52,808 nucleotides of DNA from Candidatus Omnitrophota bacterium (GTDB lineage: Bacteria > Omnitrophota > Gorgyraeia > JAHJTE01): NCBI GenBank assembly GCA_020058285.1, contig JAGVEL010000039.1, forward strand, positions 1-52,808, in the 5' to 3' direction. The translations under genes and the position numbers were made by a program. A model generated the notes under the pieces. That model saw only the letters and a list, made by a program, of their open reading frames with translations, searched no databases and had not been told where the DNA came from. Positions 8,987 to 10,207 of the stretch are shown here, one piece after another (the stretch's first letter is position 1; each line of letters opens with the position of its first letter).

Positions 8987-9988
8987 ATGGGACAATTGCG
9001 TAGAGATCCGATAGTTGGCCGCTGGGTAATTGTAAATGTTGAAAAACCAAAATTGCCAGAACAATTTGAGGTTACTAAGCATGAGTTTACTCAAAAGGCA
9101 AATTGCGCATTTTGCTATGGCCATGAAAACATGACTCCTCCGGAGATAGATGCGGTTAGGCCGCCAGATACCTTACCCAATACTCCGGGATGGGCTGTTC
9201 GCGTTGTTCCGAATAAATTTCCGGCATTGAGGATTGAAGGTGAGCTTAATCCCGAAGGGATTGGTATCTATGACATGCTAAACGGCATAGGTGCTCATGA
9301 GGTTCTCATTGAAAGCCCGGAGCATGAAAAAAACTTAGCTGATCTAGAGGTAGGCCAGATTAGGGATTTTATTGATATGGCTTGCCGCAGGGCGATTTCA
9401 TTAACCGGAGATAAACGTTTTAAATATATCTTGCTTTTTAAGAACTACGGAGTGGATGCAGGCGCATCCTTAGAGCACGGCCATGGACAGATGATTGCCT
9501 TGCCGATGATCCCTAAAAATGCCTACGAGGAATTAGAAGGAGCGTACCGTTATTTTGAATACCATGAGCGCTGCATTTTTTGTGATATCATTCGGCAAGA
9601 AAAACAAGAGAAACTGCGTATTGTTTGTGAAAATGAATTATTTGTGGCATTTTGCCCTTTTGCTTCGCGTTTTCCGTTTCAAGTTTGGCTTATCTCAAAG
9701 CAGCATTCTCCATATTTTTGCCATATGAGCGCTCAGGAGAAAAATAAGCTTTCTGAGATTTTAAAATGTTCTTTGCTAAAAATAAAAAAAGTTTTACGTG
9801 ATCCGAGTTATAATTTTATTCTTCATACTTCGCCTTTGGATATTAAACAGGCTGAAGGTTTTCATTGGTATGTAGAGATAATGCCCAAGCTTACGCGCGT
9901 AGCTGGTTTTGAATGGGGAAGTGGATTCTATATTGTCCCGACTCCACCAGAGGTGGCGGCTAAATTTTTAAGAGAAGCTGAAATTTAA
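8987..9988 (+). CDS. galT: Galactose-1-phosphate uridylyltransferase-family protein (intact HxHxQ)
   Basis: This is a 333-residue GalT-family enzyme. It carries CAFC, the ESPEH histidine, the full active site EHGHGQ with nucleophile His166 (codon 9482-9484) and Gln168, and HERCIFC. It would move UMP between UDP-glucose and hexose-1-phosphate (Leloir pathway). The related plant/archaeal ADP-glucose phosphorylase branch is an alternative, since no galE or galK is nearby. It lies 26 bases after the paralogue with matching ends (EVAAKFLREAEI against EEAAKFLRETNV), so this is a tandem duplication. It is followed immediately by a structured repeat that overlaps its stop codon. Confidence 0.88.
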   Translation: MGQLRRDPIVGRWVIVNVEKPKLPEQFEVTKHEFTQKANCAFCYGHENMTPPEIDAVRPPDTLPNTPGWAVRVVPNKFPALRIEGELNPEGIGIYDMLNGIGAHEVLIESPEHEKNLADLEVGQIRDFIDMACRRAISLTGDKRFKYILLFKNYGVDAGASLEHGHGQMIALPMIPKNAYEELEGAYRYFEYHERCIFCDIIRQEKQEKLRIVCENELFVAFCPFASRFPFQVWLISKQHSPYFCHMSAQEKNKLSEILKCSLLKIKKVLRDPSYNFILHTSPLDIKQAEGFHWYVEIMPKLTRVAGFEWGSGFYIVPTPPEVAAKFLREAEI

Positions 9989-10207
9989 ATGAGGGCACAA
10001 TTTACGGAAACGTAAGTTGAACGTAAATTGTTTCGCCCGAATTTATCCAGCACTAATTTTGTAATCAGTCTGGATTTATAGATTCAAATTTGATAAAAAA
10101 TTACTTTATTAATTAACCCAATACGCTATCAAAATTAGTGCTGGGTTCAATTCGCACAATCGACTTAGCTCGCTGTAAGGATTGGCTCGCTAAGTCGAGT
10201 GCTCATT
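9988..10207 (+). repeat. Structured intergenic element, copy 1 (before gap)
   Basis: It runs from the last base of the galT stop to 1 base before the gap ribosome-binding site. A closing pair AATGAG (9988-9993) and CTCATT (10202-10207) encloses three hairpins. The left hairpin has GGGC/GCCC at its base and a perfect 10-bp stem, 9997-10006 with 10022-10031, with loop 10007-10021 (GAAACG then AAGTTGAA). The central one is bounded by CCAGCACTAATTTT (10047-10060) and its exact reverse complement (10131-10144). The right one pairs 10054-adjacent sequence: GCAC at 10154-10157 with GTGC at 10199-10202, and CGACTTAGC (10161-10169) with GCTAAGTCG (10189-10197). Junctions are GAATTTAT and GTTCAATTC. 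Similar architecture recurs at 21314 and 40932. Confidence 0.8.
10047..10144. repeat. Inverted-repeat-bounded core of element copy 1
   Basis: The 14-bp perfect inverted repeats CCAGCACTAATTTT and AAAATTAGTGCTGG flank a 70-base AT-rich core (10061-10130). The core beginning GTAATCAGTCTGGATTTATA is clearly related to the core at 41002-41075, but in the opposite orientation. It has no coding potential. It could be a MITE-like insert in the central hairpin or an invertible segment. Confidence 0.75.

Follow-up and report, generated by a model that had tools for sequence, protein, structure and literature searches.

The window analyzed here, a stretch of 52,808 nucleotides from a Candidatus Omnitrophota genome, contains three intergenic elements that are copies of a mobile DNA repeat spread through most sampled Omnitrophota. 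Other copies carry a gene for a small GIY-YIG nuclease inside a central palindrome, and these gene-bearing copies suggest a type of jumping element that has not been described before. Our judgement is evenly divided on whether the elements in the window are mostly non-autonomous copies of a small Omnitrophota mobile element that has the GIY-YIG nuclease as its mobiliser.

The three elements occupy positions 9985-10210, 21311-21480 and 40929-41149, and all of them have the common plan that had been recognized in an earlier reading of the window from its letters (hereafter the sequence-only reading). Each element consists of two copies of one hairpin of about 60 nt, which are inverted and flank the central palindrome. 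The left and right hairpins of that reading are both present and are a single motif, the two being inverted with respect to each other. With a covariance model of a single hairpin, or half-unit (hereafter R1), each of the six hairpins expected in the window reached 63-76 bits, and the best of the remaining sites reached 13 bits. The folds of copies 1, 2 and 3 are much better than those of shuffled DNA, with z values of -8.0, -8.0 and -7.3, respectively.

In copy 1, the upstream (alpha) hairpin is located at 9985-10048 on the + strand (72.1 bits with R1), and its TTAA is the source of the stop codon of a galT-like gene (ORF end at 9988). The central palindrome of class CAGCACTAATTTT follows at 10047-10144 (+; arms 10047-10061 and 10130-10144; fold z -8.0). 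Its loop of about 68 nt is non-coding, and its arm sequence is that of nuclease-bearing copies. The downstream (beta) hairpin at 10144-10210 (-; 63.5 bits) lies directly 5' of the Shine-Dalgarno sequence of the GAPDH gene, the ATG of which is at 10222. In copy 2, the alpha hairpin (21311-21372, +; 72.5 bits) includes the stop codon of an N-acetyltransferase gene (ORF end at 21314), the central palindrome (21370-21421, +; arms 21370-21381 and 21410-21421; fold z -8.0) is of class CCCCACACCCAG, and the beta hairpin (21420-21480, -; 65.7 bits) precedes GGAGG and the gene for an acyl-CoA dehydrogenase. In copy 3, the alpha hairpin (40929-40989, +; 66.9 bits) includes the hisI stop codon (ORF end at 40932), and the beta hairpin (41090-41149, -; 76.0 bits) adjoins the trpE start codon. 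The central palindrome of copy 3 (40987-41091, +) is again of class CAGCACTAATTTT; its loop shares its sequence with the loop of copy 1, in the opposite orientation.

A multi-hairpin intergenic structure at 43211-43412 (+) is probably a fourth, divergent relative of these elements. It begins on a stop codon (GGTTTAAAT) and ends with GTCATTGAGAGG before the Shine-Dalgarno sequence and ATG. The assignment is based on its fold and on the motifs CCTTGCTTAAAC and TCCTACACAATC, which are common to other Omnitrophota copies; its R1 score of 12.2 bits is not above noise, the element being too divergent for the model.

The consensus of the half-unit is T(T/C)AAAT-GA-GNC-n-AACTTACG-GGAACG...AGTGA-CGTAAGTT-n-GNC-GA-ATTT(G/A)A-CCC. 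In an alignment of 30 halves with 20 pairs, 95.7% of the cells are paired, as against 21-39% in slid controls. The same alignment contains 124 compensated double changes, compared with 34.7 in shuffles and 4-12 in the slid controls. The complementary stem changes noticed in the sequence-only reading are therefore real, and the exchange of ACG/CGT for AGC/GCT is one of many. When the pairing of the outer arm was counted in 58 elements, 612 of 696 positions matched the inner arm within the hairpin concerned, and 422 of 696 matched the opposite end of the element. Where the two ends of an element differ from each other, the own-half pair is still retained in 203 of 242 cells. Since pairing within a half exceeds pairing across the ends, the structure is best described as two closed hairpins plus a central hairpin, a shape that can also be drawn as a cloverleaf. 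The closing pair AATGAG/TCATT that had been proposed corresponds to real inverted termini, but these do not behave as a pair, and a cross-half closing stem was rejected as the main pairing because it is weaker than the within-half pairing.

Wobble pairs are rare in both hairpins. GT and AC were found in 10 and 7 of 834 cells in the alpha hairpins, and in 5 and 3 of 622 cells in the beta hairpins. The alpha and beta hairpins lie on opposite strands relative to transcription, yet both are balanced in this respect. In an RNA, G-U pairs should be tolerated on the transcribed strand, so the equal rarity of G-T and A-C favors selection of the hairpin structure as DNA rather than as RNA.

The covariance-model search that the sequence-only reading had suggested revealed a genome-wide family in place of the three copies counted there: 78 half-units were found at E values up to 0.01 in this 1.24-Mb genome. 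Within the class, R1 matched 126 of 197 genomes, and within the phylum 255 of 384. The occurrence is patchy, and among the matches listed the number of half-units in closely related genomes ranges from none to many. The window's AlaS has a single named relative, which is 49% identical and likewise belongs to Candidatus Omnitrophota. Whole elements were read in the stretches around these matches. Rfam gave no match to the window at the gathering threshold and none to the elements at a lax threshold, in agreement with the earlier impression that no known riboswitch or repeat is involved. The exact half-unit pattern was not found in viral contigs. We found no account of this family in the literature consulted on repeats of Omnitrophota and on the association of GIY-YIG proteins with hairpin repeats or REPs, which included a minority of the subscription papers.

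The repeat is mobile. An 11.3-kb stretch of the genome G034, which contains five elements, is collinear with the congener G059, and at four of the five orthologous sites G059 has no such element. At one of these four sites, G059 has in its place a short remnant of another palindrome, one of the nuclease type; no interpretation was possible for the fifth site. At one G034 site, the element lies between GAAGAAAAGTAA and GAAGAAAAGTAAGAATAG, and the empty site of G059 has a single GAAGAAAGGCAAGAATAG, which corresponds to a perfect 12-bp duplication. A nuclease-bearing element of G059 is missing from G034, and its site has the appearance of a small replacement and not of a clean duplication. A second comparison (L153) offered no usable synteny. 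In the genome of the window, a lone half-unit at the start of a tRNA-Pro gene is flanked by a 19-bp repeat, ATGCGCCTGTAGCTCAAAT. Exact 5-bp GGAGG duplications occur in 5 of the 23 TCAA-type copies (p of about 0.009 by shuffling). The average target-duplication signal across 57 elements, however, is nil, most copies having no duplication, which suggests that most insertions are old or non-duplicating. A constant duplication of 12 bp was rejected, given the single perfect case and the nil average. Another dispersed palindromic repeat, of the GAAATTCGAAATCCGAAACAAATC type (L231; G034:C6, about 36451-36617), is also present in G034 and missing in G059.

The copies are placed in the order of stop codon, element and Shine-Dalgarno sequence. 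In 29 of 57 elements, the first 8 nt include the stop codon of the upstream gene, these stops being the TAA or TGA of T(T/C)AAATGA. The statement that the elements start on or next to the upstream stop codon thus holds because the element itself often includes it. Start codons follow within about 16 nt of the right end in the 57 elements, some of the best-scoring starts being alternative upstream codons. The two hairpins can be told apart by their feet, [AG]GNC in alpha as against GC[AG]C in beta, and 39 of the 42 elements typed by element-internal sequence only have alpha on the side of the upstream gene and beta on that of the downstream gene. GGAGG, which resembles a Shine-Dalgarno sequence, is enriched immediately to the left of the element (9 of 62 at offset 0, as against 0-5 at 29 other offsets). 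Insertion between a stop codon and the next Shine-Dalgarno sequence would exemplify a mobile element that spares gene-dense operons.

For the analysis of the nuclease gene, PF01541 was searched in 20 genomes, and the half-unit model was then applied around the matches. In 21 elements, an ORF matching PF01541, intact or broken, lies between inverted half-units. Two G059 elements have a coding loop, the translation and family search of which gave a GIY-YIG protein. The genome of the window has one nuclease-bearing element (L019; G000:C21, 552-938) with the ORF MYWVYVLKSRIDEELYYGYTDNLDRRLKEHD... (L019, 627-857; PF01541, E 9e-10), and three element proteins match PF01541 with E values of 9e-10 to 2e-15. 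The element-encoded protein has the PF01541 domain with conserved Y, G, R and E; the residues Y, G, R, H, E and K are invariant in the element nucleases, the profile of which matches the solved GIY-YIG proteins UPF0213 and SLX1. The reading frames are single and short (about 70-125 codons), and most of them are open across the domain, several being truncated or broken. The GIY-YIG gene is the only one found between element ends, in searches that covered some but not all transposase families. In most of the 21 elements, the ORF is flanked by the arms of the central stem. The arm classes, CAGCACTAATTTTA, CACACCAATTATT, CGCCCTYT and TTGACATTTT, are common to distant genomes and to gene-bearing and gene-less copies. 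The direction of the ORF is from alpha to beta in all 21 cases, which is also the direction of the host operon.

These observations could be explained by the following mechanism. The full form would be composed of the alpha hairpin, one palindrome arm, a single-domain GIY-YIG gene (about 80-110 aa), the other arm and the beta hairpin, and the gene would be expressed by read-through from the host operon. The hairpins may form in single-stranded or extruded DNA and thereby become the substrate of the nuclease, a predicted member of the superfamily that includes the junction nuclease SLX1 and I-TevI. The nuclease would nick the ends of the element and a target resembling the Shine-Dalgarno sequence, and staggered cuts would leave short duplications that vary in length. 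In each hairpin, the inner arm could pair with the target-adjacent outer arm and might serve as a guide; outer and inner arms do pair inside each half, the outer arm being host-derived in some copies only. Gene-less copies would be either mobilised in trans or fossils. A tentative extension, which we lean against rather than for, is that the elements constitute a new class of transposable element: its sole enzyme would be a single-domain GIY-YIG nuclease that recognizes folded ends and targets Shine-Dalgarno sequences or start/stop junctions, with the arms as DNA guides, and it would exist alongside large gene-less families.

There is another possible interpretation, a serious one that we nonetheless regard as rather doubtful. 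The element may be moved by something else, either a transposase that has escaped notice or the replication and repair machinery of the host working on the hairpins, and the GIY-YIG modules may be parasites that arrived secondarily by homing into the central palindrome. GIY-YIG modules with their own short inverted repeats do occur outside the hairpin frame (L200, L201, L206 and L224), among them one at a start codon (L206), one in a terminator loop (L201) and one in an operon (L224), and several divergent nuclease subfamilies share the one hairpin frame. The nuclease could therefore be a palindrome-homing guest. Some element-rich genomes, moreover, have no element-borne nuclease: UvrC is the sole GIY-YIG protein in G045, and G171 and G074 each have one unlinked GIY-YIG protein besides UvrC, these genomes being incomplete or having other element types. 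However, in all 21 elements the ORF direction is tied to the alpha-beta polarity, which is not what invasion of a symmetric palindrome at random would yield, and identical central-stem sequences are found in distant genomes both in gene-bearing and in gene-less copies. As for another enzyme, a search of the genome of the window (about 93% complete) for PF01797 (Y1/HuH, including TnpA) gave no match, while the controls were positive.

The repeat is quite unlikely to be a MITE derived from an ordinary DDE insertion sequence. Its short length, its inverted termini, the target duplications of some copies and the lack of a gene in most of them would fit such an origin, but the length of the duplication is not constant (5, 12 and 19 bp, with none in most copies), the termini are imperfect while the internal hairpins covary, and the gene-bearing form encodes a GIY-YIG nuclease and not a DDE transposase. 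A cis-acting RNA leader or processing element regulating the downstream genes, one of the two readings offered by the sequence-only reading, would account for the always intergenic and nearly always sense location, the stable folds and the strong covariation, but it is very unlikely in view of the unrelated downstream genes in the window (GAPDH, acyl-CoA dehydrogenase and TrpE), the clear presence of the element at only 3 of 30 GAPDH loci, that of this genome included (a fourth has a weak match of 28.7 bits), the empty orthologous sites in the congener, the lack of G-U excess in the transcribed orientation and the lack of an Rfam match.

The other of these two readings, a REPIN-like repeat, fits the architecture, but the linked enzyme is a GIY-YIG nuclease and not a Y1 transposase. 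REPIN/RAYT systems have inverted hairpin pairs, compensatory stem changes and, as their likely substrate, hairpin DNA (PMC3116915, PMC8266576). The Omnitrophota element likewise has high-copy inverted hairpin doublets between genes, compensatory changes, and both gene-less and gene-bearing copies. Unlike in REPIN/RAYT, where the enzyme is a Y1/HuH transposase, the gene is multi-copy and lies inside a third palindrome, insertion occurs at stop/Shine-Dalgarno junctions, and the hairpins are of about 60 nt with tandem GA steps, compared with 20-40 nt with GTAG in REPINs. The tetranucleotide GTAG/CGTC is absent from the hairpin feet, which are T(T/C)AAAT-GA and GA-ATTT(G/A)A. Membership in the REPINs therefore fails, both for this reason and for the lack of a Y1 transposase in this genome, and the architecture is only REPIN-like. 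In IS608, short internal sequences complementary to terminal or target bases act as guides (PMC8266576). The subterminal hairpins and the possible guide pairing of the Omnitrophota element resemble those of IS200/IS605, from which it differs in the absence of TnpA (Y1) from this genome and in its target duplications. IS200/IS605 elements are not known to make target duplications.

Fungal mitochondrial double-hairpin elements and free-standing GIY-YIG homing endonucleases are mobile hairpins and GIY-YIG genes of compact genomes. Mobile hairpins and GIY-YIG genes are thus shared with the present element, the host of which is bacterial. We know of no fungal double-hairpin element with a nuclease as central cargo between inverted, polar hairpin ends. 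Penelope-like retroelements also use a GIY-YIG nuclease for mobility and make variable target duplications; unlike them, the Omnitrophota elements have a single short frame only and no reverse transcriptase. An integron attC site was rejected, as the ends of the central stem, GAATTTATCC, GAACTTACCC, GAATTTGACC or similar in most copies, do not fit the RYYYAAC...GTTRRRY boxes.

If the nuclease is the mobiliser, the elements would represent a bacterial transposon type that relies on a GIY-YIG enzyme of only some 80 residues, and the REPIN strategy would have arisen on two or more occasions, each time with an unrelated enzyme. It would then become possible to test what the numerous orphan GIY-YIG genes of these small genomes do. 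At minimum, the repeat is a phylum-wide family that is missing from Rfam and affects the annotation and assembly of Omnitrophota genomes.

GIY-YIG genes may be linked to palindromic repeats far beyond the hairpin family. GIY-YIG genes were also found in other dispersed palindromes (L184, 1483-1779, and L171, 296-622; GTCATTCCCGCGAAAGCGGGAATCC, GTCATTGCGAGG...). The module of L206 (1005-1289, in G014) is inserted, with a TGAA duplication, where a dnaE-like gene starts; the original ATG has become the start of the nuclease ORF, and the dnaE-like gene now starts with a GTG that overlaps the nuclease stop codon. The module of L201 (966-1244, in G034) has CCCTCACCTTTT inverted repeats and lies within the loop of a terminator-like hairpin (GGGACGTTGCCG / CGGCAACGTCCC), and that of L224, within an operon, is flanked by TGGTAG. 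As for unusual arrangements of the half-unit itself, a tandem of three half-units in the same orientation with an 80-bp period was observed in G054 (L136, 9791-10010), and half-units were found near a 16S rRNA gene, in the region of the 16S-tRNA-23S spacer (L101 and L111). In G067, a half-unit has beside it a separate terminator-like hairpin formed by the central-stem sequence CCCAGCACTAATTTTT on its own (L138, 9850-9895).
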